DNA of 64,000 bases from Rhodobacterales bacterium. Its GTDB lineage: Bacteria > Pseudomonadota > Alphaproteobacteria > Caulobacterales > Hyphomonadaceae. Made by a program: the position numbers and the translations under genes. Positions within the stretch are counted from its first letter, which is position 1; each line of letters begins with the position of its first letter. The notes beneath the pieces were generated by a model. The model worked only from the letters and a program-made list of their open reading frames with translations, was not told the origin of the DNA and made no database searches. Below are positions 19,992 to 40,929 of this stretch, one piece after another. Where the stretch lies: contig JACXUV010000010.1 in the NCBI GenBank assembly GCA_014763715.1, forward strand, positions 23,367 through 87,366, written 5' to 3'.

Positions 19992-21473
19992 ATCAGACAG
20001 AAAAGACTGCCCCCTCGTGCCGCCTCGCTGATCGAGTCGCTCAGGGATCTCGGATACTCTCTCGAGACGGCCATCGCGGACATCATAGACAACAGTATTT
20101 CGGCCGCCGCGACCCACGTGGACATCTGGTGCGCGGTGGATGTCGAGCCGCTGGCGCTGGCTGTTGTCGACGATGGTCATGGGATGACCGAGGATGAGCT
20201 GATTGCCGCCATGCGTCCGGGCTCAACGAGTCCGATGGAAACGCGCGACGCCGGGGACCTTGGACGGTTCGGCCTCGGCCTGAAGACAGCATCGTTCTCC
20301 CAAGGGCGCCGGCTGACGGTCGTGACGCGCAAGGATGGTACAACAAGCGCCGCAATATGGGATCTCGACGAACTGGCCGAGCAGGACGACTGGGTCCTCT
20401 CGCTGCCGGAGCCCGACGATATCCGGCACCTGCCCTGGCTGGAAATGCTTGGTGAAACCGGGACCCTGGTACTCCTCGAAAAGCTGGACCGTCTTGCCGA
20501 GGATACCGATGGCGAAGCCCGGTCCGATCTGCTGAGTGCAAAGCTGGTCGGGCTCCAGCGACACCTGTCCCTTGTCTTTCATCGGTTCATCGATGGCGAC
20601 ACAGCGGACCGAAGAAAGCTCAAGCTGCGCGTGAACGGGATCGCCGTAGAGGCATTCGATCCCTTCTGCAGAGGGCAGGCCGCAACGCAGGAATTGCCGG
20701 TCGAACGCATGTCCATAGGAGGGGAGACGATCGAGATCCGCCCCTACATCCTGCCACACCATTCCAAGCTCTCGCCTCAGACGTGGCGGTACTACAAGGA
20801 CAGAAGCGATTTTCTCTCGAACCAGGGGGCGTATGTCTATCGGAACGGGCGGCTGATGGCATGGGGTGACTGGTTCCGGATGATCCCGAAAGGTGAAGCC
20901 ACGAAACTGGCGCGCGTCCGCATCGACTTTCCTTCCGCCCTGGACGCCCTGTGGACGATCGACATCAAGAAGTCGCGCGCTCATCCACCCCCAGCCGTTC
21001 GCGCCAGATTCAAGAGGATCATCGAGAGGATCGCTGGCAGAAGCGTGCGGGTCCACCGGGGAAGGGGAGAGCGTATGCTCCAGGCGGATGCATCCCCGGT
21101 CTGGATACGCACCGTGGGGCGTGACGGGATTATCTCCTATGCGCCAGATTTCGATCATCCCCTTCTGCAAGCAGCGATCGCAGGCGCGGATCCGGAGAAT
21201 GAGGGCGCAGTACGCGCTGCATTGTCAGCGCTTGGGGCCGCTCTGCCCGTCGACGCCCTCTATGCGGACTTCGCCGACGATCCGAAGCGGGTGTCCCTGA
21301 CGCCCGACAGCGCCGACAAGCAACGTGAAGTTATCGCCGAGCTGAAATCGGTGCTCGATCCAGACAGCGAAATGGAGCCGCGGGAATTCGCCAGACTTGT
21401 CCTGTCGACTGGACTCGCAGGCCGAAATATCGAAGTGATCGAGGCCGTCGCCCTTGAGTTGTATGCGGCCTGA
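19992..21473 (+). CDS. GHKL ATPase (MORC/MutL-like ATP-binding protein); start codon uncertain
   Basis: The frame encodes PPRAASLIESLRDLGYSLETAIADIIDNSISAA (N box) upstream of the track start, then VVDDGHGM and GDLGRFGLGLKTASFSQGRRLTV. Track GTG start (20118) would lose the N box. Confidence 0.85.
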   Translation: MRQKRLPPRAASLIESLRDLGYSLETAIADIIDNSISAAATHVDIWCAVDVEPLALAVVDDGHGMTEDELIAAMRPGSTSPMETRDAGDLGRFGLGLKTASFSQGRRLTVVTRKDGTTSAAIWDLDELAEQDDWVLSLPEPDDIRHLPWLEMLGETGTLVLLEKLDRLAEDTDGEARSDLLSAKLVGLQRHLSLVFHRFIDGDTADRRKLKLRVNGIAVEAFDPFCRGQAATQELPVERMSIGGETIEIRPYILPHHSKLSPQTWRYYKDRSDFLSNQGAYVYRNGRLMAWGDWFRMIPKGEATKLARVRIDFPSALDALWTIDIKKSRAHPPPAVRARFKRIIERIAGRSVRVHRGRGERMLQADASPVWIRTVGRDGIISYAPDFDHPLLQAAIAGADPENEGAVRAALSALGAALPVDALYADFADDPKRVSLTPDSADKQREVIAELKSVLDPDSEMEPREFARLVLSTGLAGRNIEVIEAVALELYAA

Positions 21474-21487
21474 GCAGGAGTTGGATC

Positions 21488-24277
21488 ATGTTCGATGATG
21501 GTGAAGCGCAACAGGTGCTCAGAACGCTTGTGGGCAGGTATGGAAGTCAGCCGGAAGCGCCAACTGTCGAGGAGCTTGAAAGGACTGCCAGGGGACTGGC
21601 AGATCTTCTCGGTTTCAACGTGGATATCAAGTCCATCGTCCTCCAGGCCCGGGAGCAGATATCGCATCGAATGGGCGAAGGCGTCTCTCTCGTCGGACCG
21701 GATGCTGCGCATGACCCCAACTGGTTGTCGCATCGGTCGATCGAATGGAAATACTCCGATGCCTATCTGGAGTTTCTCCGGGAGGACGGATGGTCTCCGA
21801 GAATTGCCGACACCCTCGGGGGCGTAACCCGACGCCTTGTCGGTTACCTTCAGGATCCGGATGTCGAAGGCAGCTGGGATCGCAGAGGGCTTGTCATTGG
21901 TCACGTGCAGTCCGGCAAGACGGCCAACTATCTGGGACTGGTCGCTCGCGCCGCCGACGCGGGCTACAAGTTCATCGTGGTGGTTGCCGGGATTCACAAC
22001 AATCTGCGGCGTCAGACGCAGGAGCGCGTGGACGAAGGGTTCGTCGGAGAGGTCAGTGACCCCGCACGAAAGGAAAAGCTCAAGGCACAGACTGGCACCT
22101 CGAAGATCGGCGTGGGCCTGGTCGATCCCGACCACCGGCGCCCGGTTTCGCTGACGTCTACCGCCGATGATTTCAAGAAGGCTGTTGCCACCTCCCTGCG
22201 CAGCGGGCTCGAGGACTGGAGCAAGCCAGTCATCGTCGTGATCAAGAAGAACCGTTCGACGCTGAAGGCCCTGAACGACTGGCTCGTGGACTTCAATCGG
22301 GACCCGGGACAGAAGCAGATTGCCAATATTCCAATGCTGTTCATCGATGACGAGGCTGACAATGCGTCGATAAACACGAACAAGCCCGAACTGAAGCCGA
22401 CGACAACCAACAGGCTCATTCGCAATCTGCTCGGACTGTTCCGGAAGAGCTGCTATGTCGGTTATACGGCAACGCCTTTTGCGAACATCTTCATCAACCC
22501 GGAGGCCTATGACGAGGAGTCCCGCAAGGATCTCTTTCCGGAGCACTTCATCCACTGCCTCGATGCGCCGGACAATTATTTCGGAGCGGAGCGCCTGTTT
22601 CTGGATGATGGTTCGAAGGCCCGCCACATCAAGGCCATTGAGGACTGTGAGCAGATCATTCCTCTCAAGCATGCGAAGACGCACGAATTTTCCGAACTGC
22701 CAAAGTCGCTGAAGGAGGCCATTCGATCCTTCCTGCTGGTTCGCGCCATTCGAACGGCTCGGGGCCAGCAGAAGAAACACTGCTCGATGCTGATCAATGT
22801 CTCGCGTTTCGTGGATGTACAGCGCGAAGTCGACCGGCAAGTCACGGAATATCTGGAGGAGCTGCGCAACGCGATTCTCGCCTGTGCGGGCATGCCCGAG
22901 GAGATCGCGGACAGGAACGCTCATCTGGTCGCGATCAGATCGACATTCGAAATGCTGAAGTTCAACGAGGCCGGACTCGACTGGAAGGAGGTTCTGACCT
23001 TCCTGCCCGATGCCAGCCGCTCGGTCGTGACGGCGGTCGTCAACAGCAAGTCTCCTGATGGCTTGAACTATGCGGAATTCTCCGATCGTGGCGAGGCGCT
23101 CAACGTGATTGCCATTGGCGGCCTCAGCCTTTCTCGAGGTCTTACCATCGAGGGGCTGACGATCAGCTACATGTATCGAAACACGAAGATGTACGACACG
23201 CTGCTGCAGATGGGGAGGTGGTTCGGTTATCGCCCCGGCTACGAGGATCTGTGCCGCGTCTGGCTGGCGCCGGATTCTATCGGTTGGTACACGCACATTT
23301 CGGAAGCTTCCGAGGAGTTACGTGATCGCATCAAGGAAATGAACCGGGTGAATGCAACTCCCCGCACCTTCGGGTTGATGGTGGAATCCCACCCGGACAG
23401 TCTGACAGTTACCGCCATGAACAAGATGCGCGCCGCCGAAACACGAACCGTCAGCGTCAGCTATGATGGCAAGCTCGTCGAGACATATGTTCTGTCCAGG
23501 GAAGCAAGACCGCACGAGAAAAACAGGGCGCTGTTCGAAAGACTTCATTCCCTGCTTGTCGACGAGCATGCCGACCAGCTGGTCAGGGGAGGTGAGCGAC
23601 CGGCATCTCGGGTCTGGCGCGGAGTTCCGGCCGACGTGGTCAATGATTTCCTCGCAGATTTTCGGGTGCATGCCCACAGTGCCGAGAGGCTGATGAGTGC
23701 CCGCAAGTATCTTTCCCTCATCAAGGAACGCTTTCCGGTATGGGACATCGCCTTTGTCTCCTTGATCAATGCGGGAGGAAAGAGCGATTCCACCAGCTTT
23801 GGTGACTTCCACATGGTCCACCAGTCACGAAATGCGGGAACGAGCGAGAACAGGCTCAAGGAAATCGAAGGCGGTCTCTTCATCACCAACAATCAACGCG
23901 TCGCCGGCACAGGTGACGAGAGCGCCGGCCTGAAGTCGGAGGAGATGGATGCCGCAATGAAGGTCGCCGCCTCCCGTGATCGAGAAAAATGGACCGACAG
24001 GGATACCCGTCATTTCAGTGTCAGAGGCGCGCCGCTGCTTATGCTTCACCTGATCGACCTCGAGAATCCGCTGGTGGAGTCCGATGAAAGCAAGCTCCTC
24101 AAGGGCGCTCCTGCCATCGGTCTGAGCTTTCCAGCGACCGGAGACTTCTCCACGGTCGAGTATGTTCTGAACCAGGTGATGATCAGGCAGCTGGAAAGCG
24201 AACAGTTCGATGCTGCCGACGATGAGGACGATTACGATCGGGATGATGCAGCGATCGACTCGGGGGAGGCGACATGA
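21488..24277 (+). CDS. Z1 domain-containing protein (helicase/endonuclease-like)
   Basis: 929 aa; GHVQSGKTANYLGLVARAADAGYK, MLFIDDEADNASIN, GYTATPFANIFI, GGLSLSRGLTIEGL. Confidence 0.92.
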   Translation: MFDDGEAQQVLRTLVGRYGSQPEAPTVEELERTARGLADLLGFNVDIKSIVLQAREQISHRMGEGVSLVGPDAAHDPNWLSHRSIEWKYSDAYLEFLREDGWSPRIADTLGGVTRRLVGYLQDPDVEGSWDRRGLVIGHVQSGKTANYLGLVARAADAGYKFIVVVAGIHNNLRRQTQERVDEGFVGEVSDPARKEKLKAQTGTSKIGVGLVDPDHRRPVSLTSTADDFKKAVATSLRSGLEDWSKPVIVVIKKNRSTLKALNDWLVDFNRDPGQKQIANIPMLFIDDEADNASINTNKPELKPTTTNRLIRNLLGLFRKSCYVGYTATPFANIFINPEAYDEESRKDLFPEHFIHCLDAPDNYFGAERLFLDDGSKARHIKAIEDCEQIIPLKHAKTHEFSELPKSLKEAIRSFLLVRAIRTARGQQKKHCSMLINVSRFVDVQREVDRQVTEYLEELRNAILACAGMPEEIADRNAHLVAIRSTFEMLKFNEAGLDWKEVLTFLPDASRSVVTAVVNSKSPDGLNYAEFSDRGEALNVIAIGGLSLSRGLTIEGLTISYMYRNTKMYDTLLQMGRWFGYRPGYEDLCRVWLAPDSIGWYTHISEASEELRDRIKEMNRVNATPRTFGLMVESHPDSLTVTAMNKMRAAETRTVSVSYDGKLVETYVLSREARPHEKNRALFERLHSLLVDEHADQLVRGGERPASRVWRGVPADVVNDFLADFRVHAHSAERLMSARKYLSLIKERFPVWDIAFVSLINAGGKSDSTSFGDFHMVHQSRNAGTSENRLKEIEGGLFITNNQRVAGTGDESAGLKSEEMDAAMKVAASRDREKWTDRDTRHFSVRGAPLLMLHLIDLENPLVESDESKLLKGAPAIGLSFPATGDFSTVEYVLNQVMIRQLESEQFDAADDEDDYDRDDAAIDSGEAT

Positions 24278-25236
24278 AGGGTCACTGGGACCAGCTTCAT
24301 CCGCCAGCTGCCGGTTATACATGGAAGCTGAAGCGTTCCGATTCGCCGATCCGGACATTGTTCGGTCGACACGCGGATGGGCACGTGGCGTTCATGCTGG
24401 AAATGGAGCGCGACTATCCCGACCTGCTGAGACGACTGCCTGAAATCCAGGGATTGTCCCTCGATCATCAGATGTTTTCTGAAAGCGCTTCCTACGGATT
24501 GCTCGTGGCGCTTCGCGAGGCAAAGGACGAGGAATTGTTTGCAAGTCTTTGCGACGATCTCGCAGACTGTATCGAGGACCTGACAGATGAACGTCAGGCC
24601 GTACTGTCCTTTCTTGGAAGACTGGAGCGTTGGCAGCGCTTCCTTGCACGAGACGGGCGCCGACTTCTATCGACGGACAGTATTCGAGGACTGGTCGCAG
24701 AGCTCGAGATCGTTCGATATCTCGTCGCCGATCGAAAGCGTTCGGCGACAGAGGTGGTGAAGGGTTGGGAAGGGCCATTGAGGGCTCCCCAAGATTTTAG
24801 CTTTCCGGACCAGCTGATCGAGGTGAAGTCATGGGGTGGGGCAGTAGGCGCAAAGGTCAGGATCTCGTCCGAAATCCAGCTGCAGGTGGTCGATCGTCCC
24901 ATCTATCTGGCCGCGGTCCATCTGGTCGAGGACAATGAATCAACGAATGGCCGGTCACTGAACGACATTGTGAAGACAATAAGATCGATCCTGCCAGCGG
25001 AAGTCATCGACCTCTTCGAGGACCGGCTGAATGCTGCCCGCTATATCGAACTGCCGTACTACGACGCGCCGAGATTCCGGATAGATGCGACCGATTTCTT
25101 CGAGGTCGCAGGAGAGTTTCCAGCGCTTGCGCCGGATCGTCTGCCTCCAGCGGCAACTGACGTCCAGTACACACTGGATCTTGCACAGCTTTCAGCGTTC
25201 AGAATCTCGGAAATACCGGAGCCATCCGATGAGTGA
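24274..25236 (+). CDS. PD-(D/E)XK motif protein (DUF4420-like)
   Basis: 4-bp overlap with the Z1 gene; GLVAELEIVRYL...FPDQLIEVKSWGG nuclease-like motif. Confidence 0.83.
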   Translation: MKGHWDQLHPPAAGYTWKLKRSDSPIRTLFGRHADGHVAFMLEMERDYPDLLRRLPEIQGLSLDHQMFSESASYGLLVALREAKDEELFASLCDDLADCIEDLTDERQAVLSFLGRLERWQRFLARDGRRLLSTDSIRGLVAELEIVRYLVADRKRSATEVVKGWEGPLRAPQDFSFPDQLIEVKSWGGAVGAKVRISSEIQLQVVDRPIYLAAVHLVEDNESTNGRSLNDIVKTIRSILPAEVIDLFEDRLNAARYIELPYYDAPRFRIDATDFFEVAGEFPALAPDRLPPAATDVQYTLDLAQLSAFRISEIPEPSDE

Positions 25237-27061
25237 AGTAAAGGTCGAAGATACGTTCGAGGAATTTCGGCAGGAAGTCCTCGCGTCCGCCGCGGCGAAC
25301 AAGGACTTCGAGAAGATCGAGTTCCTGAACGCTTTCGGCCGTGAACTGGAGGAATGCGACGAGATCGAGGAGCTGCAGACCTGCATCTCCCCGAATATTC
25401 GCGGCGTCCAGGTTGATGGGTTCGGGTTCAATTCCGATGAAGGCCTCGACCTCTTCATCGCTGATTTCAATCAGCGCCCCGTACTGGAGACACTTACACG
25501 GACCGAGGTGACGACGTTCGTGAAACGCCTGACATCCTTCTTTTCGCGATCCCTTTCGGGTGAATTGCATCGTTCACTGGAAGAGACATCGGAAGTCTAT
25601 GCGGTATCAAGAGCAATCCACGAGCGAGGCGGCAAGTTCGGGCGGGTTCGCTTGTACGTCCTTTCGGAAAGGCAATTGAGCGATCGTTTCGAATCGATCG
25701 ATCTGTCGATGCATGAGGACGCAACGCCCGTTGCGCTTCATATCTGGGATATGAGCCGCCTGCACCGGCTCCGGACCTCCCGGAATCAGAAGGAAGCCAT
25801 CGAGATCGACTTCGGGACTTTTGCGGCGGGACCAATCCCATGCCTGTCCGCGCACCTCGAGAGCGATGTCTACAAATCCTATCTTCTGGCGCTTCCGGGC
25901 TCCGTCCTGGCTGATCTCTATGCGCGCTACGGCGCAAGACTGCTCGAACAGAATGTTCGTGCCTTCCTTCAGGCGACCAACAAGGCCAATCGCGGAATTC
26001 GGGATACGATCCTGGAAGACCCTGGCATGTTCTTCGCCTATAATAACGGAATTACCGCAACGGCCTCTGCCGTAGATGTCGAAGCCGATGGTGACACGAC
26101 CAGAGTGCACGCCATACGGGACCTGCAGATCGTGAATGGTGGTCAGACAACCGCGTCCCTGTTTCATGCCCGCAGGAAGGACAAGGCCGATCTGTCCAAG
26201 GTCTTTGTCCAGATGAAGCTGACGGTGATCGACGAAAGCAGGTTCGAGGAGGTCGTACCCAGGATCTCGCAATATGCGAACACGCAGAACACGGTCAACG
26301 CCGCGGACTTCTTTGCAAACCACCCGTTCCACATTCGGATGGAGTCCTTTTCGAGAAGACTTTGGGCTCCGGCACCACCCGGGCAGCAGACCGAGACCAG
26401 ATGGTATTACGAGCGAGTTCGAGGGCAGTATGCAGAAGAACAGACACGGCTCGACGCGCGCGGCAAGCGGGTGTTCCTTCAGCAGAATCCCAAGAGCCAG
26501 CTTCTCCGAAAGACCGATCTGGCGAAGTACGACAATATCTGGGACGATGACCCTGTGCGCGTAAACCTCGGAGCCCAGAAGAACTTTGCCCGCTACGCCG
26601 TTCGTATCGGTGAGGAATGGAAGAAGGACGCCGAACGGTTCGACGAGCAGTACTTCAAGCAGGCCGTTGCAAGGGCGATCATCTTCAAGTCCAGCGAGCG
26701 AATCGTATCGGCGCAAACCTGGTACGAAGGCGGCTATCGCGCCAACATCGTCAACTATGCCAATGCGCTGCTCTCCCATGTCCTCGGCGCAGAAGATCTG
26801 CAGCTCGATGTGGGAGCTCTCTGGCAGGCACAACGCATTCCGGATTCGCTCTCGTCCGTCATAGCGAGCCTTGCGGAAGTCGTGAACGACGAGCTCACAA
26901 GTTCAAGTCGCGGTTTGTCCAATGTAAGCGAGTGGGCAAAGAAGACAGATTGCTGGACAGCTATCCTGAAGCATCTTCCAAATGCGCGATCGATTGTCCA
27001 GAGATCCTGCAGCGATTGGGCCGTGTCCTCGGCGTCACGCCGCCTTGCTTCGGGAACCTGA
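25229..27061 (+). CDS. AIPR family protein (abortive phage infection-related)
   Basis: ATGAGTGA overlap with the preceding gene; FFAYNNGITATASAVDVE...IRDLQIVNGGQTTASLFHARRKDKADLSKVFVQMKLTVI. Confidence 0.9.
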   Translation: MSEVKVEDTFEEFRQEVLASAAANKDFEKIEFLNAFGRELEECDEIEELQTCISPNIRGVQVDGFGFNSDEGLDLFIADFNQRPVLETLTRTEVTTFVKRLTSFFSRSLSGELHRSLEETSEVYAVSRAIHERGGKFGRVRLYVLSERQLSDRFESIDLSMHEDATPVALHIWDMSRLHRLRTSRNQKEAIEIDFGTFAAGPIPCLSAHLESDVYKSYLLALPGSVLADLYARYGARLLEQNVRAFLQATNKANRGIRDTILEDPGMFFAYNNGITATASAVDVEADGDTTRVHAIRDLQIVNGGQTTASLFHARRKDKADLSKVFVQMKLTVIDESRFEEVVPRISQYANTQNTVNAADFFANHPFHIRMESFSRRLWAPAPPGQQTETRWYYERVRGQYAEEQTRLDARGKRVFLQQNPKSQLLRKTDLAKYDNIWDDDPVRVNLGAQKNFARYAVRIGEEWKKDAERFDEQYFKQAVARAIIFKSSERIVSAQTWYEGGYRANIVNYANALLSHVLGAEDLQLDVGALWQAQRIPDSLSSVIASLAEVVNDELTSSSRGLSNVSEWAKKTDCWTAILKHLPNARSIVQRSCSDWAVSSASRRLASGT

Positions 27062-28756
27062 AGACACCCGCTCGGTCAGGTTTTCCTCTCCCAGGTAAGC
27101 TGCTTGCAGAAGGTCCCAGACCACGTCGGCGATGTTGCGCGCGAGGAAAGGGGGGACTGCATTGCCGACCTGTACATATTGCTGAGTTCGATTCCCGAGG
27201 AACACGTAATTGTCCGGAAAGGTCTGAAGCCGTGCGGCTTCCCTGACGGTCAGACTTCTGCACTGAAGCGGGTCCGGGTGTATGAAATAGTGCCCATCCT
27301 TGGAGATGTGGCTCGTGACAGTGGTCGAGGGACGCGACCAGAGCTGAACGCGAAACCGGTCGGAGAAATTTCCGGACGTCCAGTTTCCGTGATTGGGCGA
27401 AAGAGACTTCGGAAACTCGTGCGCCTTGGGAGAGCGCATGTAAGCGAGCGCAAAGACCGAGGCGAAGAGATATCTGCTGAGGTCGGAGCGAATATGTGTT
27501 CTGGCCTCATGATTGTGGGTGCGCTTCAACCGAGGGTCCAGTATCCAGTTTGCGAGTGCTTCCGGACACCGCTTCGACACGCCGGGGACGCCTTGTTCGG
27601 TGCGATCAAGCTCCGCATTCCTGACCCTGAATGCCTCCAGACGATCCGCCGCCTTGTCATGCACCTTCGGATCGGTCTTGCCCGTCTCCCGAATTATCAC
27701 CTGGTAGGCGGCCTCGACCGCCCCGCGCCAATTCTCGAGACTGTCCGGTTCCTTGCTGAGGCCCGATCTCAGATGCGGAAGCCCCTTCAGGACAGATTGG
27801 GAGCTTGCCGAAGGGTATTGTCGGAGACCGATACCGGAGTCGACTTTCCACAGATCCTTCCTGATACCGATAATGATGACGCGGTGTCTCGCCTGCGGGA
27901 GCCCCCAATCCTCAGCCCGCACAAGGAAGTCCCTCATGGCCAGGTCATCGGACTGGTCGAACAGCCTGTCTCCGGCACCCAGAGCTACCAGGCGATAGCC
28001 TGTTCCTCTCGATCCGGCATTCCGAAGGTCCTCGAGAATCTGAGAGGCGATCACCTGTCCATTGACACTGGACGAGACGATTCCTTTGACGTTCTCCATG
28101 ACGAACAAGGCCGGATTCACGCGTTCGAGGATCCGGATGTACTCTCGATACAGGAAATGGCGTTGGTCCTTCTCGGGCTTGTATTCCTTGTTGCCCCCAT
28201 TTCGGGAGCGTCCGGCCAGCGAATAGGCCTGGCAGGGTGGTCCGCCAATCACGATGCAGCGGTCGTTTGCTTCTGCAACAATCGCATCGAGCCGCTCGTC
28301 GATGATGCGATCAGCGGTCTTCTTTCCGAGTTCGAGGCACTGCGCTTCCTCTCGCGCCTTTTCCCACTCGGCTGGATACAGGGTTGCCCAGTCGGGCTGG
28401 TCGTCATCGCCATTCAGCCAGTCATAGTATTCATCCGGAAAGGCGTCGGAAAACTGGCGGAGAAAGGCTCTCAGCAATAGCGTCTTGTGGGCTGCCTCAT
28501 CCTTCTCGACCGAAAGCGAAATCCTGAATCTCCGAGAGCCATCCTCGGCGCGAGATGCGCAGAACCCTTCAGCGAGGCCTCCCGGCCCTGCAAACAGATC
28601 GATGACGTGATATGATTCGGACAAGTCTTGAGGCCTCCGGCGTTTTGCCGAGTCTATACAATTTGGCGTCTCTCGCCAGGATGGAAATTCGGTGGTTGAT
28701 GTAGTTTCTTCGAAAGTACGGTCCCGAATGATGGCCGGAATCGGGGGGAAGGACAC
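27035..28756 (-). CDS. DNA (cytosine-5) methyltransferase (longest ORF; true start probably near 28624)
   Basis: VIDLFAGPGGLAEGF, GGPPCQAYSLAGRSRNGG, ENVKGIVSS, RSLTVREAARLQTFPDNYVF, QVGNAVPP. Confidence 0.95.
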   Translation of the reverse strand: MSFPPIPAIIRDRTFEETTSTTEFPSWRETPNCIDSAKRRRPQDLSESYHVIDLFAGPGGLAEGFCASRAEDGSRRFRISLSVEKDEAAHKTLLLRAFLRQFSDAFPDEYYDWLNGDDDQPDWATLYPAEWEKAREEAQCLELGKKTADRIIDERLDAIVAEANDRCIVIGGPPCQAYSLAGRSRNGGNKEYKPEKDQRHFLYREYIRILERVNPALFVMENVKGIVSSSVNGQVIASQILEDLRNAGSRGTGYRLVALGAGDRLFDQSDDLAMRDFLVRAEDWGLPQARHRVIIIGIRKDLWKVDSGIGLRQYPSASSQSVLKGLPHLRSGLSKEPDSLENWRGAVEAAYQVIIRETGKTDPKVHDKAADRLEAFRVRNAELDRTEQGVPGVSKRCPEALANWILDPRLKRTHNHEARTHIRSDLSRYLFASVFALAYMRSPKAHEFPKSLSPNHGNWTSGNFSDRFRVQLWSRPSTTVTSHISKDGHYFIHPDPLQCRSLTVREAARLQTFPDNYVFLGNRTQQYVQVGNAVPPFLARNIADVVWDLLQAAYLGEENLTERVSSGSRSKAA

Positions 28757-29123
28757 AAAGCCGGAGTTGGTCCTTCGGAAAGGGCTCTTTGCCCTCGGCT
28801 TGCGCTATCGACTGCACGATCGGAAATTGCCTGGTCGACCCGATATAGTCCTTCCCAAGTGGAACGCTGTTGTCTTTGTGAATGGCTGCTTCTGGCATCG
28901 CCATCCTGGCTGCAGGTTTGCCACTACGCCGTCGACACGAACCGAATTCTGGCTCGACAAGTTTGAGAAGAATGTTGCGCGCGATCGGCGAAACGTCGCT
29001 GCGCTGCGGACGCTGGGCTGGAGAATCCTTGTCGTCTGGGAGTGCGACATCAAGGCTGATCCGGGCGGCACTGTCGCGCTTGTCGATCAGTGGATACGTG
29101 ACGGTGATCCTCGAAATGAATGA
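28692..29123 (+). CDS. vsr: Very short patch repair endonuclease Vsr
   Basis: GTG start; KVRSRMMAGIGGKDTKPELVLRKGLFALGLRYRLHDRKLPGRPDIVLPKWNAVVFVNGCFWHRHPGC. Confidence 0.93.
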   Translation: MVDVVSSKVRSRMMAGIGGKDTKPELVLRKGLFALGLRYRLHDRKLPGRPDIVLPKWNAVVFVNGCFWHRHPGCRFATTPSTRTEFWLDKFEKNVARDRRNVAALRTLGWRILVVWECDIKADPGGTVALVDQWIRDGDPRNE

Positions 29124-29369
29124 GGGATGCTAGGGGGCTGGATCACCCCCTCCCTGGGGGGGGGCGGAATGCAAACGTCTTCCGGTTTTCCGTCATGAGC
29201 GCCCCGGTCCGGATCGTCTCCTGTGACACCATCTTATGGCGCGCTGCGGGGATGGTTTCGCTTCGTCAGCGCATCCCGCTGCCGGGGAGGGGGCTTGAGG
29301 ATTTTACATATCGAGCGCACGCATAATAATGCTCAATGAAAAGGTGGGTACGAAAGGAGGTGGAAATCA

Positions 29370-30038
29370 ATGGCGAGCCAGGCTCGAAAAGCGTTTGATG
29401 AAAACGCCAGCGACATAAAACGTCTGATAGACCTTCACTTGAAGGCTGGTGGCGACGCTCGCGGCCGAAGGTATGGGCTGGAGGTTCTGAATAAATCGGC
29501 AATCGTGTTGATAACTGCGTTCTGGGAGGCTTATTGCGAAGATATCGCTGAGGAGGCGTTGAGGCATATCGTCGAGCACTCAAAGGATTCCGCTTCCTTG
29601 CCCGAAGAGTTGAAGAAGCAGATTGCCAAAGAAATCAAATCCAAGCAGCATGATTTGGCCGTGTGGGAATTGTCCGGAGACGGTTGGCGGACATATCTGC
29701 TTGATCGGTTTGATCAACTTACAGAGAACCGAAACCGCAAGCTAAATACGCCAAAGACCGCTCAGATCGATAGCCTTTTTCTGGAAACCATAGGCATTAG
29801 GCAAATGTCTAGGCATTGGAAGTGGCCAAGGAAAATGACCGTGCCGCGTGCTACCGAAAAACTGGACAAGTACGTAACACTTCGTGGGGCCATTGCACAT
29901 CGAGGGTCTGACTCGAAAAGTGTTACGAAAGCTCAGGTAACGGATTACTTTGAATTTATCAGATCAGTTGTGGCCAAGACCGGTGGCGCGGTGAATGCGC
30001 ATGTCAGGGCGGCGACTGGCAAGCCGCTTTGGGAATAG
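29370..30038 (+). CDS. HEPN domain protein (RiboL-PSP / MAE_28990-like)
   Basis: 222 aa; LLNKSAIVLITAFWEAYCEDIAEEAL-type N-terminus and C-terminal LRGAIAHRG (RxxxxH HEPN RNase motif). Confidence 0.75.
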   Translation: MASQARKAFDENASDIKRLIDLHLKAGGDARGRRYGLEVLNKSAIVLITAFWEAYCEDIAEEALRHIVEHSKDSASLPEELKKQIAKEIKSKQHDLAVWELSGDGWRTYLLDRFDQLTENRNRKLNTPKTAQIDSLFLETIGIRQMSRHWKWPRKMTVPRATEKLDKYVTLRGAIAHRGSDSKSVTKAQVTDYFEFIRSVVAKTGGAVNAHVRAATGKPLWE

Positions 30039-30046
30039 TTCACTCT

Positions 30047-31783
30047 ATGAAGCACGTCGCTCGAAATTTTCTGGGTTGTCTCGACCGCGAGCAAGATCAG
30101 TTCGAGCAGAAGCTTGCTCAAGACACCACTGGTATCACCCTAATCGCAGCGGTGAGAGAATTCGACTTCTACTACTATAACTATGTTCGACGCGAACAAA
30201 GCGATGATGCCGATTTTCAGTTTTATATCCTTAGGTTGGGACTTCCGCGGCTCGTTGCCGGGGCACTAGGGCGGACAAAACGTTTCGATTTTCCCGTTGT
30301 GCTTTTTCGAACAGCGCCACGCTTGGTAATAGCCACCTTGGAATTGGTCTCTGCTTTTGGATTTGTTGAGCATGGTCGGCGAATGGCGCTTGCTGCGATG
30401 GCTGGTGAATGCAATCTCTATCAGCAGAGCGACGACCAGTTCGAATTTGTGCTAGCTGATGACATGCTCAACATGGAACATCACGAATCTTCCGTAGCCG
30501 GTCACTATACTCTTCAACATAGAGCTCGTGTGGATTCTGGAATAAAGGAATCATTTGAGCGAAAGGGTACCTTTGAGCATATCCAAAATCTGCTCGACGA
30601 AAACGTCTATGTCTTCAGGGACCATTTTATTGGGTACAATGCACATCCGGACTTGGATGACTATTTCTTCGGGCTGGCATATCTTCGTGCACAGAGTTTG
30701 GATGGATTCGACGCGTTCCATTGGAGCGCTGAATTTGGAGGAGTGACGTTTCAGAAGTATGTTCTTGCGTCAATCTATTTTCTTTCGCTCGCGATGAAGC
30801 ATGAGCGGTTCTGCGAAGCGCTTTTAGCCGCTAACAGTGACCACCAGTTGCGGGACGTGCTCACTATTACCGCAGAAAAATCAGAATTTCTTGCTTCGAC
30901 GATAGAAGCTGTGAATCTGTACGGTACAGACATCGAGGGTTTTCAGCCTCTCACTTCGGAGGAAGCGGCGATTGTCATCGACGCGCTCTCTGTTAGGCGG
31001 GATAATCTACAAGTCATTGCACCCACTATGTCACCTCTGCCCTACCTTATTGAGTATTCAGATAGTGCTTGGATCAAATCGATAGCTGGGGCTCATCTTG
31101 ACCCGTTCAATTTCATGCTGACCTCGCTGAAGCAAAGCTATCCCAAAGATTATGATCGCAACCAGCAGCACCGCGAAGGCTCCATGCAAAAGGCTCTGCG
31201 TCGCCTGATCAAGGCCGCGATTCCAAATGCTTCTTTCTTGGACAACATAACTCTTCGAAATTGCGGCAAAACAGTAACTGATATCGATTTTGTCGCGATA
31301 GATGAAGAAACGGGATTCACGATGTTGTTTCAACTCAAGCACCAGGATCATTACGGGGGTGACTTTCGCAAGCGGTCATCGCAGGCCAAACGACTGCAGG
31401 AGCAGTCGAGCAGCTGGCTTGAGAAGGTCCGGTCTTGGATTCGATCCAGTTCCCATGAAGAAATTTGTTCGACCCTTCGCAGAAAATCGAACAGCGCTTC
31501 ACTCGATTTTCGATTGATCATAGTAACGAAAAACTTTGCGCACTTTTTGGCGACGGTAGATTTGAACGAGGACGCTGCGTACGCTACTTGGGTTCAATTT
31601 TACGATTCACTTGTCCGAGTAGAAAATGCACCTGAAAAAGTGGGCTCCCTTCGGTATCTGTTTGACGAACTGAGCGCGCACATGACCCACAAAATAGCAT
31701 CGAAAGTCTGGCTGGAAACCGTCGACAACTTTCATTTGGACACGCTATCATTTCGAATACGCCAAGAGCGTCAAGAGATTTAG
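30047..31783 (+). CDS. Uncharacterised protein with C-terminal PD-(D/E)xK nuclease-like motif
   Basis: About 578 aa from ATG 30047; TVTDIDFVAIDEETGFTMLFQLKHQD (D...QxK pattern); starts 8 bp after the HEPN stop codon. Confidence 0.7.
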   Translation: MKHVARNFLGCLDREQDQFEQKLAQDTTGITLIAAVREFDFYYYNYVRREQSDDADFQFYILRLGLPRLVAGALGRTKRFDFPVVLFRTAPRLVIATLELVSAFGFVEHGRRMALAAMAGECNLYQQSDDQFEFVLADDMLNMEHHESSVAGHYTLQHRARVDSGIKESFERKGTFEHIQNLLDENVYVFRDHFIGYNAHPDLDDYFFGLAYLRAQSLDGFDAFHWSAEFGGVTFQKYVLASIYFLSLAMKHERFCEALLAANSDHQLRDVLTITAEKSEFLASTIEAVNLYGTDIEGFQPLTSEEAAIVIDALSVRRDNLQVIAPTMSPLPYLIEYSDSAWIKSIAGAHLDPFNFMLTSLKQSYPKDYDRNQQHREGSMQKALRRLIKAAIPNASFLDNITLRNCGKTVTDIDFVAIDEETGFTMLFQLKHQDHYGGDFRKRSSQAKRLQEQSSSWLEKVRSWIRSSSHEEICSTLRRKSNSASLDFRLIIVTKNFAHFLATVDLNEDAAYATWVQFYDSLVRVENAPEKVGSLRYLFDELSAHMTHKIASKVWLETVDNFHLDTLSFRIRQERQEI

Positions 31784-32059
31784 CAATTAGGGAAATTGTG
31801 CAGACAGAAACGCAAGCAACGCAGATAGTATGTCACACGCCTGCATCTTTCAGTCGGGCAATCAGCTAGGTGTGATTTCTCGCCATTTCGAACAGGCCGC
31901 CTGTCGCAAAGGCGTAGAGAGTAAGGAAGAGCGGTTGATGTCATGCTCGTACTCTCAGGTCGAATAGGGCCATCTACGGCCGTGCAATGTTCAATCGAGT
32001 GCGGTCATTGTTTGCAGGGGCCCGCGCCCTTGGCGGATTGCTGGTTGTTGAAAGCAGTT

Positions 32060-33325
32060 TCATGACGATGAATATTCCTCGACGTCTTCGCTGCGGATGA
32101 GCGTTTCCGGTCCAGGACGCCGGCGAAAAATTGATTGGGCAATGGCTTCGATTCGACCACGATTGCGGCGCGCGGCGGACAACAAATCGGTGCTGTTCCA
32201 ACTCTCAGCTGAGAAGTGATCTTCGAGCGCTTCGGCGCTGATTGAGCAAAGATGTGTCCCCTGAAAGGCGCGCCCCTCGAAGGAGATGATATCGCGTCGG
32301 GGATCGTGCCGAAGTTCAGGCGCGTGGAAACTCAGCGCAAGCGCCTGATCGAGTGCCGCGCGCCAGCTCTGGCCTTCAGAATCTGCCTCGCTTAAGGCGT
32401 CATACATGACTTGAGGCCGCGTTTCTGCCAGTGCGTGAATGAGCACGCGCGCCTGCGCCAGATCCTTGTTGGCTTTTGCTGCTCCGGGGCGCCGCTTTTG
32501 CGAGATAATGAGTTTGTGAACGGCAAACCGTTCAGGAGAAGGGATCTGGACGAGCAGGCCCTCCATGTAGAGAACGACCGCCGGGATCGGATCCCGCAGC
32601 AGGAAATTGAGATAATGGAGGCGCTGTGCCCAGATGCCCATCGAATCAAGATGAGCCGGCGTCACGTCATCTGAAAAGGCAGGCGTCAGAAAATCAATGG
32701 AATAAGATCCGTCCGGAAGTGTCCAGCTAGTCGGCTTTTTGGGATCGAGGGCGTTGCGTGGCGAGAAGCCGAGGGCCTTCAATGTTTCGGCAACGTCAGG
32801 GTCTGCAACATCTTCGATTGCGACTGACAGCTTTTCGAAGCTTGCGATATCAAGGTCTTCTGTTTGAGCAAGCCAACCAGGGTCTGCGGATTGAGACATC
32901 AGATCCATGCCAAGTATGGATGGGTAGCAGCGAAAGGCATGGGTGCCGACCAAGGTGCCCCCCAGTCGGAAGACGCCGGATGCGCTGAGCGCCCGAAGGA
33001 TTGACCCCGTCTGACGATCTAGTGTCGGCAATCCCGCTGCCCGCAATTGTGCAACCTGTCTTGACGCGTTGGCTTTGAAATCTGCCTGATCACTGGAGCT
33101 CGCGCGCCAGTCTTCTATGCGCGCGCGCAAACTGTCTGAATCTGGGCCAAGATAGCGTTGCCGGGGAGGTGCTCCGGGCGCAACACGCTGATTGACATAC
33201 CAATATGTCTTCCCGGTTCGTTCCCGGGTAAAGGGGGCACCCGAGAAGTCAAAGGCTGGCCGGTTCAGGTGTGACTGGACCAGGTTCGCATAGGTTGACT
33301 GGACTGTGGCCGGATAGAGAAGCAT
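32060..33325 (-). CDS. GSU2403-family nucleotidyltransferase-fold protein (NTP_transf_8-like)
   Basis: 421 aa; VGTHAFRCYPSILG...TEDLDIASFEKLSVAIED...LYMEGLLVQIPSPERFAVHKLIISQKR. Confidence 0.8.
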   Translation of the reverse strand: MLLYPATVQSTYANLVQSHLNRPAFDFSGAPFTRERTGKTYWYVNQRVAPGAPPRQRYLGPDSDSLRARIEDWRASSSDQADFKANASRQVAQLRAAGLPTLDRQTGSILRALSASGVFRLGGTLVGTHAFRCYPSILGMDLMSQSADPGWLAQTEDLDIASFEKLSVAIEDVADPDVAETLKALGFSPRNALDPKKPTSWTLPDGSYSIDFLTPAFSDDVTPAHLDSMGIWAQRLHYLNFLLRDPIPAVVLYMEGLLVQIPSPERFAVHKLIISQKRRPGAAKANKDLAQARVLIHALAETRPQVMYDALSEADSEGQSWRAALDQALALSFHAPELRHDPRRDIISFEGRAFQGTHLCSISAEALEDHFSAESWNSTDLLSAARRNRGRIEAIAQSIFRRRPGPETLIRSEDVEEYSSS

Positions 33326-33357: not shown

Positions 33358-33924
33358 CAACACACAACAATACGTCCGATGCGCGTCTGGGCTGCCGCAT
33401 TGAACTAAGTCAAATCGTCGGCGGCGTCGCGGAGAGTTGGACTGCCGCCGAGTCCGTGGCGAGTCTTCCAGACAAGCCATTCATCACGCGAACGCCCCTC
33501 TGACGAGGGGTCTGTTCGGAGGCAGTGAGCAAATCGTCTCGATGTTCCGAAAATCGTGGGCCGCCTCCTGCCCGGCTCGTCTCCGGTCACGCCGCATTGC
33601 GGCGCGCTGCGGGGGCTCGCCGGCGTCTCGCCGCGCCTGCGCTTCCTCGCTGCGGGGCAGAGGGGGTCGTAGGCGCGGTCAGATAGTCGGTCGCGTCGTG
33701 TCACGGACATCGGAGTGCTTTCCCGGAAAGCCGGTCGGGGGCGGACGGCGCGTGTGCCGGCGCGCGGCCTGACTGCAAGGAGGCGGGCTTTACAAGTCGT
33801 TGGGATGGGTGGGGCGTCTTACCTGATCCCCTTGCAGCCAGTCCTTGTGCGCGCCGCTTTCCGCGACCTCCGCCGCCCCCTCCCGTCTTGCCGGGAAAAG
33901 CGACAGGGCGGGAAGGAGGATGAG

Positions 33925-34476
33925 ATGACGACCCGCACGACACAAGAGATGGCAGCGCCCAACCGGCCGGAACGCCCCCGGATCTATGTGGCATGCCTTG
34001 CCGCCTATAATGCCGGACACCTGCATGGGCGGTGGATCGAGGCGAGCGAACCGGAAGAGGTGAGGGAAGAGGTGCGCGCGATGCTTGCCGCGTCGCCGGA
34101 ACCGGACGCGGAAGAGTACGCGATTCATGATTACGAGGGGTTCGAAGGGTGCCGGATTTCGGAATGGGCGAGCTTCGACCTGGTGTGTGCGCTTGCCGAC
34201 TTCATCGAGCAATATGGGTGCCTTGGTGCAAAGCTCTACTGCCATTTCGGTGAAGATCTGGACGAGGCCTGCGCGGCGCTCGACAACTATGTCGGTGAAT
34301 ATCGCTGCCTTGCGGACTTTGCCGAGGAACTCACCCGCGAGACCGGAACGGAAATTCCGAAGGCGCTTGAATACTATATCGACTGGGCCGCGATGGGTCG
34401 CGATCTCGAACTGAACGGCGACGTGTTCGCTATCACGCTCGGCTTCGACGAAGTGCATGTGTTCTGGAGCAGCTGA
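33925..34476 (+). CDS. ardA: Antirestriction protein ArdA
   Basis: PRIYVACLAAYNAGHLHGRWIEA...EEYAIHDYEGFEGCRISEWASFDLVCALADFIEQYG; SD aggagg before ATG 33925. Confidence 0.95.
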   Translation: MTTRTTQEMAAPNRPERPRIYVACLAAYNAGHLHGRWIEASEPEEVREEVRAMLAASPEPDAEEYAIHDYEGFEGCRISEWASFDLVCALADFIEQYGCLGAKLYCHFGEDLDEACAALDNYVGEYRCLADFAEELTRETGTEIPKALEYYIDWAAMGRDLELNGDVFAITLGFDEVHVFWSS

Positions 34477-35133: not shown

Positions 35134-36324
35134 TCACCTCCCGTTCGTGTGCTTGAGGACTTCGCCTGCCCACCAGTTCATCATCTCCACCCGCTCGGCC
35201 CAGTAGCGGGCGCGATTGTAGATCGACCGTACGCCCTTCGTGTCCACATGGGCGAGCTCGGCTTCGATTGCGTCCGGATTCCAGAGACCGCTTTCATTAA
35301 GAAGGGTCGAGGCCGTGGCACGGAACCCGTGCGGCGTCATCCGCTCCCCGGGAAAACCGAGGCGCTCCAGCGCGCCATTCATCGTGTTCTCGCTCATGGG
35401 GCGCTCGGGATTCGCCATGGCCGGAAAGACATAGTCTTCCGGTCCGTTCGTGCCGCGCAGATCCAGGAGGATGTGAAGTGCAGCCGGTGGGAGCGGCTTC
35501 CGATGCTCCCGGCGCATTTTCATGCGCTCGGCCGGTATGATCCACACGGCCTTGTTGAAATCGAACTCCGCCCATCTGGCATGCCGGAGCTCTCCTGGGC
35601 GCGGGAACAGGAACGCCATGAGTTTCAGGGCGCTTGCGGTGCCGCCGCGACCTTCATATCTCCAGATCGCTCGCACCAGGCGACCGAACTCGTCCTCTTC
35701 TGTGATAGCCGGCATGTGCCGGACCTTCGGCGAAATGAGCGCACCGCGCAGGACAGGGGTTGGATCGCTCTCCGCCCGAAGCGTCGCAACTGCAAATCGA
35801 AACACCTCACCGATAGTCGTGCGGAGCCGCTTGGCCGTTTCATAGTTCCCGCGAGCTTCGATGGAGCGAAGCACAGCCAGGACATCGCCAGGCTTGATGT
35901 CAGTGATTGGCATCGGCCCCAGGTGTTCGCGGGCAAAGTCAAGCAGCCAAGCCTTCTTGCCGAGCGTCGTCTCGGCGAGACCGTCCAGCCTGCGCTTGTG
36001 GAGGAATTCATCGGCAATCGCGTTGAAGCTTTCCGGATCCGTCTTCTTCCGACCGGGTCGGATCGATTTGCGGACACCGCCTGGGTCTATGTCCTGCTTC
36101 AGGAGGCGCTTTGCCTTGATGCACTTCTCCCGGGCCTCTTCGATCGTGACAATTGGCCAGGCACCGAAGGACAGTGTCTTCTGCCTGCCTTCGAACCGGT
36201 AGTTCATCCGCCATAGTTTCGAGCCGGTCGGGACCACGAGGATGTAAAGTCCGCGTCCGTCCGCCCGCTTGTAGGACCTCGCCTCAGGCAACAGGGCGTC
36301 GATATCTGTGTCGGTGAGTTTCAT
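35134..36324 (-). CDS. Second tyrosine recombinase/integrase (DUF4102 type)
   Basis: MKLTDTDIDALLPEARSYKRADGRGLYILVVPTGSKLWRMNYRFEGRQKTLSFGAWP; TPHGFRATASTLLNESG...AHVDTKGVRSIYNRARY; abuts the tRNA-Leu 3' end. Confidence 0.95.
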   Translation of the reverse strand: MKLTDTDIDALLPEARSYKRADGRGLYILVVPTGSKLWRMNYRFEGRQKTLSFGAWPIVTIEEAREKCIKAKRLLKQDIDPGGVRKSIRPGRKKTDPESFNAIADEFLHKRRLDGLAETTLGKKAWLLDFAREHLGPMPITDIKPGDVLAVLRSIEARGNYETAKRLRTTIGEVFRFAVATLRAESDPTPVLRGALISPKVRHMPAITEEDEFGRLVRAIWRYEGRGGTASALKLMAFLFPRPGELRHARWAEFDFNKAVWIIPAERMKMRREHRKPLPPAALHILLDLRGTNGPEDYVFPAMANPERPMSENTMNGALERLGFPGERMTPHGFRATASTLLNESGLWNPDAIEAELAHVDTKGVRSIYNRARYWAERVEMMNWWAGEVLKHTNGR

Positions 36325-36434
36325 GAACCTCTTCACAGTCAACAAGCGAAGAAGCGAAAAGGGTACCAAATTCCATCAACCCGATACAGGCCACATGGTA
36401 TCGATAATAAATAATATCAATTAAATCAAGGAAT

Positions 36435-36519
36435 TGGTGCCCAGAAGAGGACTCGAACCTCCACGCCTTGCGGCACACGGACCTGAACCGTGCGCGTCTA
36501 CCAATTCCGCCATCTGGGC
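36435..36519 (-). tRNA. tRNA-Leu(CAG)
   Basis: Reverse complement GCCCAGATGGCGGAATTGGTAGACGCGCACGGTTCAGGTCCGTG...GGTTCGAGTCCTCTTCTGGGCACCA. Confidence 0.95.
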
Positions 36520-36584
36520 ACGGGGTAGGGAGGCGGTCGAATACTGGCTGAGCGGGCGCCCGTCAACGGGCAAATCGCTGTGGA

Positions 36585-37517
36585 GTGCAAGAATATGATG
36601 GACGCATTTGCGACAAATGTCTTTTGATCCTCATCAACAAGGATCCAGGTTCAATGCCTCAAATTTTGAGAAAAGCGGTGTTGCCGCAGTACGTCGCCAA
36701 TCCAGAAATTCACAATCGCTTTCTCGTTGGTGCAAATACACCAGACCTGCCCATGCCGGTGACCGCGCGGAAGAGTGGACGCATCGTGCCTGATAAAGCA
36801 GGCATGCCTTTGAGCCAATTGAACTGGTTCATCGAACACAAGAGCGAACACGCCGCGGAATTCTATGAGCGGTTGGCATCAGATATTGGTGCCGACAAAG
36901 CAGACACTTTCGTTTCTCTGATTTCGTCGTGCTGGGCGGACGGACATAAGCGGTACAAAGGCGAGATCCTAAAACTGAAGCGAAGCGTGAAAAGTTTCGT
37001 CGACAACAACTGCGCTATCGGAACTTTGCCCGTGTACGACGCAAAATACGACACTGGTGAAGCCGCTTTTTCTGACGGGGATATACAAAAGATCCTCGTC
37101 CTCAATGAAAGCATGCTTCGCTGTGCGATAGACGACTGGATAGCGGAGCGTCGGGATGGTCAGGAAATTGGTCGTTCGGACGTCTATGTTTGCCGGGGAA
37201 TTGGGATCGATCAGTCGATGTCGGCCGCTCGAACCTATAGAGAAAGGGACTATATCTGTTCCTACTCAATGTCAGTTTCTGTCGCCGAACAATTCTGTCA
37301 GCAAGTCAGCAACGAAAAATCTGCACTCATTCACACGGAAGTCGACACGTTTGCCCGACGGACCTTGTTCTTCAGCCCATTCATACCAGGTATGCGATCG
37401 CATCAATTCGAATTGGGCATCATTCCGGGCCGGAAACCAGATAGTCTTACCTACCATGGCAAATTTGGTCCGCGAGGGATGGAGATTGAGGAGTATACGC
37501 TTGATCCAGGTGACTAG
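36585..37517 (+). CDS. Hypothetical protein; weak ADP-ribosyltransferase-like motifs (start 36585 or 36654)
   Basis: VYVCRGIG ... YICSYSMSVSVAEQFC ... QFELGIIPGRKP resembles ART R / STS / E motif order. Confidence 0.5.
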   Translation: MQEYDGRICDKCLLILINKDPGSMPQILRKAVLPQYVANPEIHNRFLVGANTPDLPMPVTARKSGRIVPDKAGMPLSQLNWFIEHKSEHAAEFYERLASDIGADKADTFVSLISSCWADGHKRYKGEILKLKRSVKSFVDNNCAIGTLPVYDAKYDTGEAAFSDGDIQKILVLNESMLRCAIDDWIAERRDGQEIGRSDVYVCRGIGIDQSMSAARTYRERDYICSYSMSVSVAEQFCQQVSNEKSALIHTEVDTFARRTLFFSPFIPGMRSHQFELGIIPGRKPDSLTYHGKFGPRGMEIEEYTLDPGD

Positions 37518-37709
37518 TGGGTGTTCACACCCCATGCACCTTCGATGCTGACAGACCGCCGAGCGATCCAGTCCCAAACACCCACAACTAAAGGAAATCT
37601 CGTCCGGAAAAGCCGTGTACAGAGACCGCATCCGGCGATTACACAGTTTTCGGAGATCGGCTTGCAGTCCAACGATTACGGGCGGATATGCCCAAGAAAT
37701 GCGTACACG

Positions 37710-38801
37710 TCAGCGTTCGTGTTCAGTGTCGCGCTCGCTCGGTCTCTGACGCAGGTTGATCCGCACGCCTTGCATGCTGGATGAAGTTCGCGACGCCTGC
37801 GCGATGGCGCTGATCATTTGCTGCACCGAGGGCAAAAGGCGGGCTGGCGATCGTGCGCGTGCTTCGCGACCAGGTATCGGACCGAGGCGGGTTGGAGTGC
37901 TGATCCGCGCTTGTTGTTGGCGTGCTCTGGCGAGATCGAAGCCAAGCGTTCTGGCCTCTGCTTGCCAGGCCTGGAACAGTGCCGTGCGCTCTCTTGGCCG
38001 TTTGGCCTGCCGAGTGCGCAGGGCTGCCAGTTCCATCCCCTTGGCCGTACGGTAGCCATAGGCGTCGGCCGCGCTTTCGATCGCCTGCCTGCGCTTCGAA
38101 AAAGCACGTTCGATGTCGCGGGGGATCGCGGTCAGGCGGAAGCTCGTGCCATGGCGCTCGACGGCATGGCCATCGCGCTCGAGTCCATTGGCGAGGTGCG
38201 CGCGGTAGATGGCGCCCGCTTCCTTCTGGGCCTTGTAGAGATCGCGGCTGACGAGACTGCCCCAGCTCCCGTCACGCCGGGGCGCCAGATTGAAGATGAA
38301 GGCATGGGTGTGGAGCTGGGGGTCGAGATCACGGCTCGTGTGATGGTGGAAGCGGGCAATTGTCAGGCCGGCGACGGGCTCGCGGATTGCGCCGCCCTTG
38401 CCACGCCTTGTGAATGCGTGATGGTCTTCGAGATGGGCGGTGGCGGCATGAACAGCCTGGCGGTGGGCGGCTTCGATTCTGGTGCGTTCGGCAGGAGTAG
38501 AAAGTGCCCACATGACCGAGACCGATTTCGGGGCCGAGAACGTCATGTCCCAACCGGGGGCGTGCGACTTTCCAATCTGGGTAAGGCGCGTGCCAGTTCT
38601 CGGATCGTGTCCATTCAGAGCGGCTTCGAATTCAGCTTTCGAAACCGGACCCTCAAGCGCGAGCCGTTCAGCGCCTCTCCCGTCCCATTCCCCATCTGCT
38701 TCGGCTTCACCCTGGCCTGTATAGTATTCATCTTCAGCCATATGCTTGAAATAATTCACCGCGGCGGCAACGGACTTCCGGGCGGAGATCGATGCGACCA
38801 T
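37710..38801 (-). CDS. MobF-family relaxase, short form
   Basis: FSAPKSVSVMWAL, TIARFHHHTSRDLDPQLHTHAFIFNLA (3H motif), DLYKAQKEAGAIYRAHLA; only 363 aa. Confidence 0.92.
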   Translation of the reverse strand: MVASISARKSVAAAVNYFKHMAEDEYYTGQGEAEADGEWDGRGAERLALEGPVSKAEFEAALNGHDPRTGTRLTQIGKSHAPGWDMTFSAPKSVSVMWALSTPAERTRIEAAHRQAVHAATAHLEDHHAFTRRGKGGAIREPVAGLTIARFHHHTSRDLDPQLHTHAFIFNLAPRRDGSWGSLVSRDLYKAQKEAGAIYRAHLANGLERDGHAVERHGTSFRLTAIPRDIERAFSKRRQAIESAADAYGYRTAKGMELAALRTRQAKRPRERTALFQAWQAEARTLGFDLARARQQQARISTPTRLGPIPGREARARSPARLLPSVQQMISAIAQASRTSSSMQGVRINLRQRPSERDTEHER

Positions 38802-40606: not shown

Positions 40607-40617
40607 GGAACGGGTCC

Positions 40618-40929
40618 TCAACCGGCGGTCCGGCCGCTGAGAGCAAGGAGCAACTGCTCGAACATGGATTCAATGCGTCCAAGCGAGCTGGACTGCTTGT
40701 CGACTGTGGTCGAAGCTGCAGTCAGGTCTTGGGACAGAGCTGCGAGCCTTCGCTCGATCTTCAGGAGGCGTTCGGCCTGCGTGTACGGATCACCGTCTGT
40801 CAGGCCCGACAGGATGAGCTCTCGCGCGACGCCGGTCGGGGTTCCGGACATGCGGCGAGCCCGTACGGTCAGCTGTTCGATATCCGACTCGGCGAGACGG
40901 ATCGAAAGTGGGCGTGTCTTGTCGGTCAT
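40618..40929 (-). CDS. MobC-like/relaxosome accessory protein
   Basis: MTDKTRPLSIRLAESDIEQLTVRARRMSGTPTGVARELILSGL (RHH-like) plus coiled coil; in operon with T4CP and relaxase. Confidence 0.65.
   Translation of the reverse strand: MTDKTRPLSIRLAESDIEQLTVRARRMSGTPTGVARELILSGLTDGDPYTQAERLLKIERRLAALSQDLTAASTTVDKQSSSLGRIESMFEQLLLALSGRTAG

Follow-up and report, generated by a model that had tools for sequence, protein, structure and literature searches.

Two genes that lie 8 bp apart on the same strand of a bacterial defense island, one with the motif of a HEPN RNase and the other with a PD-(D/E)xK-like pattern, raise the question of whether an RNase and a DNase form a single effector module or whether each belongs to a different system. 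The genes are carried by a 64,000-nucleotide stretch of DNA from a Rhodobacterales bacterium (the window, meaning the whole stretch that was analyzed). The initial annotation had read them as a candidate for such a module, and the coordinates and lengths that it gave for both genes (222 and about 578 aa), as well as the 8-bp gap, are correct:

29370..30038, + strand: gene 1, putative RNase of the RiboL-PSP HEPN family, 222 aa (PF18735, E 4.9e-21)
30047..31783, + strand: gene 2, uncharacterized, 578 aa, with a mostly helical N-terminal region and a C-terminal PD-(D/E)xK domain (AlphaFold)

Gene 1 belongs to the RiboL-PSP HEPN family

The coding region of gene 1 begins with the ATG at 29370 and ends with the stop codon at 30036-30038. 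The following sites were located in or ahead of the gene:

29303..29330, + strand: promoter-like site ahead of the HEPN gene, TTTACA-16-AATAAT (10/12, a consensus match only)
29353..29361, + strand: strong, near-perfect Shine-Dalgarno sequence of gene 1, AAAGGAGGT
29883..29900, + strand: HEPN R-x4-H motif RGAIAH, residues 172-177 (R172-G-A-I-A-H177)

Promoter-like matches number five in the region compared with a mean of 2.6 in shuffled sequences, which is a small excess. A Pfam profile search gave gene 1 a score of 75.9 bits against PF18735 (HEPN_RiboL-PSP), for which the curated cut-off is 28.4. Furthermore, the R, G, I, A and H of the motif are invariant in a five-sequence alignment of gene 1 with four relatives at 40-56% identity, and so the assignment to the RiboL-PSP HEPN family by way of RGAIAH holds. 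The analysis suggests that gene 1 is probably an abortive-infection RNase.

Gene 2 has a predicted PD-(D/E)xK nuclease fold

The first ATG of gene 2 (30047) lies 8 bp past the gene 1 stop codon; an in-frame TTG at 30029 would give a protein of 584 aa that overlaps gene 1, and this start is less likely. Gene 2 has no match in Pfam, NCBIfam or PHROGs and no meaningful match in PADLOC, and scanning 33 of its relatives against family profiles added just scattered weak matches. A single-sequence query found no relatives on viral contigs, and searching the literature under the names of gene 2 and the Mza system was of no help. Four features of the C-terminal part are of importance for its assignment:

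31094..31690, + strand: C-terminal nuclease domain, residues 350-548 (modeled alone with AlphaFold, pLDDT 88.9, pTM 0.85)
31175..31177, + strand: E377, active-site candidate in the first helix, invariant in 33 sequences
31280..31288, + strand: D412-x-D414, active-site candidates, invariant in 33 sequences
31331..31339, + strand: Q429-L-K431, QxK active-site candidates, invariant in 33 sequences

In the alignment of 33 homologues, E377, D412, D414, Q429, L430, K431 and Q433 are retained in every sequence, down to 18-20% identity. R376, next to E377, and three tryptophans are invariant as well; the invariant positions are few, and apart from the tryptophans they are those expected of a PD-(D/E)xK active site. 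The AlphaFold model of the full-length protein (pLDDT 89, pTM 0.88) contains a core with alpha-beta-beta-beta-alpha-beta topology, the usual order for this fold, composed of helix 376-391, strands 395-405, 408-419 and 424-431, helix 440-467 and strand 487-494. The invariant residues sit on helix 376-391 and on strands 408-419 and 424-431. The D...QxK pattern that had been read as a QxK variant of PD-(D/E)xK is therefore not a product of chance, being both invariant among the homologues and in the expected order in the model.

Structural comparison of the C-terminal domain with the PDB by Foldseek gave a best E value of 3.9e-3, with nothing reaching 0.001, and the top matches are mostly PD-(D/E)xK enzymes. 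The matches include R2 retrotransposon endonuclease domains, Bax1, Cdn1, MunI, BspD6I, BstEII, Card1, Can2, NucC and Upx, the last over 153 aligned columns at 3.4 Å rmsd. By sequence profile, a PD-(D/E)xK enzyme was reached solely as NucC (E 1.5). The prediction that the C-terminal third of gene 2 adopts a PD-(D/E)xK-type nuclease fold is well supported by these sequence and model data, and by its conserved residues the domain would be catalytic. Its mostly helical N-terminal portion of about 350 residues matches no known fold, with full-length Foldseek searches of the PDB and BFVD returning noise.

Gene 2 ends a Mza-like operon on a tRNA-Arg island

To the left of the two genes, the window contains the following features:

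13107..13183, + strand: tRNA-Arg (CCT), likely integration site of the island (ARAGORN)
13283..14548, + strand: tyrosine integrase, left edge of the low-GC island (PF00589, E 1.8e-15; PF13356)
20118..21473, + strand: GHKL (paraMORC/MutL-like) ATPase, MzaB-like (PADLOC MzaB, E 2.9e-61; PF13589)
21488..24277, + strand: Z1-domain SF2 helicase, MzaC-like (PF10593, E 2.2e-75; PADLOC MzaC, E 1.9e-142)
24274..25236, + strand: DUF4420 PD-(D/E)xK protein, MzaD-like (PF14390, E 4.2e-55; PADLOC MzaD, E 1.3e-16)
25229..27061, + strand: AIPR protein, MzaE-like (PF10592, E 4.6e-98; PF22879; PADLOC MzaE, E 6.5e-84)
27035..28756, - strand: Dcm-type DNA cytosine-5 methyltransferase (PF00145, E 9.7e-45; best PADLOC model DrmMII, E 1.3e-89)
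28692..29123, + strand: Vsr mismatch endonuclease (TIGR00632, E 5.1e-42, above cut-off; PF03852)

Homologues of MzaB, MzaC, MzaD and MzaE are thus present in order according to PADLOC. The AIPR reading frame opens at 25085, and the start was placed at 25229 because AIPR_N begins at residue 80 of that frame. The NCBIfam equivalog cut-offs exceed the scores of all four proteins (255 versus 850 bits for MzaB, 554 versus 1500 for MzaC, 117 versus 420 for MzaD and 361 versus 1050 for MzaE; for MzaB the E value is 7.8e-76), and for this reason we call the operon Mza-like rather than Mza. PADLOC was run on nine proteins of this part of the window (20118-33325), and none matched MzaA, DrmA, DrmB or DrmC. 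Gene 2 ends this divergent Mza-like operon (GHKL-Z1-DUF4420-AIPR, Dcm, Vsr), which is located on the tRNA-Arg island, and the defense-island setting first proposed for the two genes stands.

The integrase begins 100 bp downstream of tRNA-Arg, and past 14 kb the GC content drops from about 0.64 to 0.55, with gene 2 in the part where it is lowest. No attachment-site repeat of the tRNA-Arg end was found. An imperfect 48-bp direct repeat (77%; 29204-29251 and 33567-33614) brackets the HEPN gene, gene 2 and the gene that follows; no third clear copy exists in the genome, and the repeat is possibly a trace of cassette insertion or may be due to chance. Several other genes of the region were also noted. 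A 1426-aa reading frame (14640-18920, + strand) matches MqsA antitoxin and HTH families in its N-terminal part, the remainder being without a Pfam match. The next gene after gene 2, on the opposite strand, encodes an NTP_transf_8 nucleotidyltransferase with a DUF1488 domain (32060-33325, - strand), and the reading frame at 33715-34476 (+ strand) may encode a protein resembling ArdA-type antirestriction proteins. A second integrase by tRNA-Leu, followed by a TrwC relaxase and a TrwB-like coupling protein (35134-40621), is the edge of a separate conjugative element.

Gene 2 accompanies unlike Dcm, Vsr and GHKL systems

Plasmids, phage records and sampled genomes supplied relatives of gene 2, together with a single GTDB species-set scan, which picks up just those relatives that have short conserved peptides in common. 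Genes in the surrounding DNA were called by a simple longest-ORF rule. Vsr is encoded within 20 kb of gene 2 in 23 of 41 places, whereas its genome-wide count would predict 0.71. For the Z1 helicase at the same distance, the figures are 18 of 41 observed and 0.31 expected. When the neighbors at 43 loci were clustered, Dcm was found at 23, Vsr at 18, Z1 at 17 and a GHKL ATPase of the MzaB kind at 13, where the share of Dcm and Vsr may be overstated since the search alignment was seeded partly from Rhizobiaceae plasmid copies beside Vsr. The genes to the left of gene 2 in the window, namely those for Vsr, Dcm, the GHKL ATPase, the Z1 helicase, DUF4420 and AIPR, are its conserved partners.

These partners come in different arrangements. 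Gene 2 follows AIPR in Mza-like operons (GHKL, Z1, DUF4420, AIPR) after a gap of 9 bp (locus L069) or 66 bp (L073), and it is directly downstream of DrmA-DrmB-DrmC in DISARM loci (L072, L082, L083). A third setting consists of a DndH-like ATPase, then Vsr and then gene 2 (L005, L006, L008), with 45-85 bp between the last two. The fourth is marked by a long GHKL protein of the double-ATPase type (L056, L070, L086), and at L086 gene 2 follows Vsr after 24 bp. Of three extra loci from an evenly drawn phylum sample, one has a DndH-like gene by gene 2, one has Dcm at a distance of about 5 kb, and one has Vsr and a Mza-like set by gene 2.

Two further arrangements were observed. Related HNH-like proteins with a CxxC...H pattern are encoded before gene 2 in one Cytophaga genome (L058, 10602-11300), where the gene overlaps gene 2 by 4 bp, and in one Chloroflexi genome (L085, 8095-8802). 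In three sphingomonad genomes (L075, L076, L077), two gene 2 paralogues stand head to head, 32-59 bp apart, by a Mza-like set. Because the two copies of these pairs fall in different clades of the gene 2 tree, the arrangement suggests a heteromeric pair.

The tree of 40 gene 2 proteins requires at least 14 changes of context compared with a minimum of five, which indicates that gene 2 moves between systems. The DISARM setting occurs in two separate clades, and some forks are weak and several branches long, such that exact histories are not readable. One tentative explanation is that Mza-like systems, DISARM, DndH-like plus Vsr loci and HEF_HK paraMORC systems would each recruit gene 2 as a plug-in effector via a common signal read by the N-terminal fold of gene 2, with the HEPN protein of the window wired to the same signal. 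Such a signal would probably be a DNA intermediate or the state of the GHKL ATPase.

For between a quarter and a third of the relatives, mainly from Bacteroidota, the DNA fetched around gene 2 contains no partner gene, and so gene 2 may act alone. We consider it doubtful that gene 2 is a self-contained defense nuclease that merely gathers in defense islands and has no functional tie to the Dcm, Vsr or Mza genes, its N-terminal region sensing phage directly and its C-terminal domain cutting DNA. Several Bacteroidota copies and two proteobacterial ones without a Dcm, Vsr, Z1 or GHKL gene nearby are consistent with such independence, as are the frequent changes of host system on the tree and the fact that the clustering of defense genes in islands inflates co-occurrence anyway. 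In contrast, the enrichment is specific to systems that contain Dcm, Vsr and GHKL proteins, the spacing of gene 2 to AIPR, Vsr or DrmC is operon-like, and the PF18735 HEPN, although it is also of a defense type, shows no such enrichment by gene 2.

The HEPN gene is adjacent to gene 2 in a single genome of the sample

Co-occurrence in other genomes, which had been named as the check on the proposed pair, proved negative in both directions. A PF18735 HEPN lies within 50 kb of gene 2 in none of 41 places elsewhere, and gene 2 is absent from the neighborhoods of all 18 HEPN relatives. By profile search, PF18735 HEPN proteins are present in four of 39 genomes or records that carry gene 2, never on the same contig, and the three loci of the evenly drawn phylum sample also lack one. 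Because HEPN is found by gene 2 nowhere else and gene 2 by none of the HEPN relatives, the adjacency is limited to this genome within the sample searched. Specifically, a Firmicutes metagenome-assembled genome (L065) has the order GHKL-Z1-DUF4420-AIPR-Dcm-Vsr-gene 2, which is that of the window without HEPN, suggesting that HEPN entered the space between Vsr and gene 2 in the lineage of the window.

We also considered that a distant HEPN might occupy the slot before gene 2 at other loci. Genes of about 230 aa occur there, and by eye these are HNH-like proteins (few loci) or unrelated reading frames; none matches the HEPN profile built here.

A true two-gene effector module of HEPN RNase and gene 2 DNase, as originally envisaged, was not borne out in the sample searched and is now quite improbable. 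The 8-bp spacing on one strand in this genome, which leaves no intergenic room for a separate gene 2 promoter, would fit such a module; against it are the 0 of 41 gene 2 places with a PF18735 HEPN, the lack of gene 2 near HEPN relatives and, on Pseudomonas plasmids, a gene on the opposite strand after the HEPN relatives. Least probable of all is that the two genes resemble a toxin-antitoxin pair, with gene 2 holding the HEPN RNase in check. The toxin-first order and the tight spacing would fit this reading, and HEPN toxins are often neutralized by a neighboring partner, as in HEPN-MNT pairs. Against it are the occurrence of each gene without the other elsewhere and the invariant nuclease residues that gene 2, unlike a typical HEPN antitoxin, has kept. 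The pair in the window is an example of a two-gene module that is plausible in one genome and dissolves on comparison.

A proposed role for gene 2

Gene 2 is probably an accessory DNA endonuclease of restriction-like defense systems based on 5-methylcytosine, rather than half of a HEPN/PD-(D/E)xK pair. This reading builds on the computed domains and the predicted fold, the invariance of the active-site residues, the order of the genes, the enrichment of Vsr and Z1 by gene 2, and the absence of HEPN beside it elsewhere. Dcm would mark host DNA at a cytosine motif, Vsr would repair the T:G mismatches that arise from these marks by deamination, and the GHKL/Z1/DUF4420/AIPR machinery would recognize and attack unmarked phage DNA. 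We propose this scheme on the basis of established knowledge of the families and the proposal of Iyer et al. (2008; PMC2292703), who described this gene content for paraMORC-type restriction systems.

A second metal-dependent DNase would come from gene 2, and the helical N-terminal region of this protein (up to about residue 350) may dock on the machinery or sense its activation. In our scheme, HEPN entered the locus in this lineage, between Vsr and gene 2, and is probably cotranscribed with gene 2. HEPN genes in restriction operons have been proposed to encode back-up RNases (PMC3710099), and the most likely role of gene 1 would similarly be to halt translation if the attack on DNA fails. Catalysis, docking, the sequence in which these steps occur, cotranscription and an abortive function for HEPN are what we infer.

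Relation to known systems

Likeness to the defense PD-(D/E)xK nucleases Upx, Card1, Can2, Cdn1 and NucC consists of their rank among the Foldseek matches of the gene 2 domain, beside classical restriction enzymes; these proteins have no significant sequence similarity to gene 2, and no shared sensor domain was found. Restriction systems with Dcm, Vsr and GHKL ATPases are widespread and poorly understood. The nameless nuclease family of gene 2 recurs by no fewer than four dissimilar forms of these systems and is a direct candidate for the enzyme that inflicts the damage in them, and its unplaced N-terminal fold may hold their common trigger.

Gene 1 resembles the RiboL-PSP HEPN family in exceeding the family cut-off and keeping the R-x4-H motif, but differs in lacking a fusion to an endoRNase L-PSP domain. 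ParB, which has been reported as an operon partner of this family (Anantharaman et al., 2013; PMC3710099), is not seen at the window locus. Loci L056, L070 and L086 are similar to restriction loci of the GHKL/response-regulator kind, for which a description is given in PMC8011034. With regard to DISARM (DrmA, DrmB, DrmC, DrmMII), gene 2 matches no DISARM model in PADLOC, whereas its relatives stand directly downstream of DrmC at the three loci given above and the window Dcm scores best against the DrmMII model. The window proteins differ from those of the Mza system (MutL/Z1/DUF4420/AIPR) in scoring below NCBI's equivalog cut-offs. Relative to the Mza and paraMORC systems, the HEPN RNase and the nuclease encoded by gene 2 are additions, and the passages of Iyer et al. 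(2008; PMC2292703) considered here do not mention them. With both kinds of system the window shares the GHKL ATPase, the Z1 SF2 helicase, DUF4420, AIPR, Dcm and Vsr.
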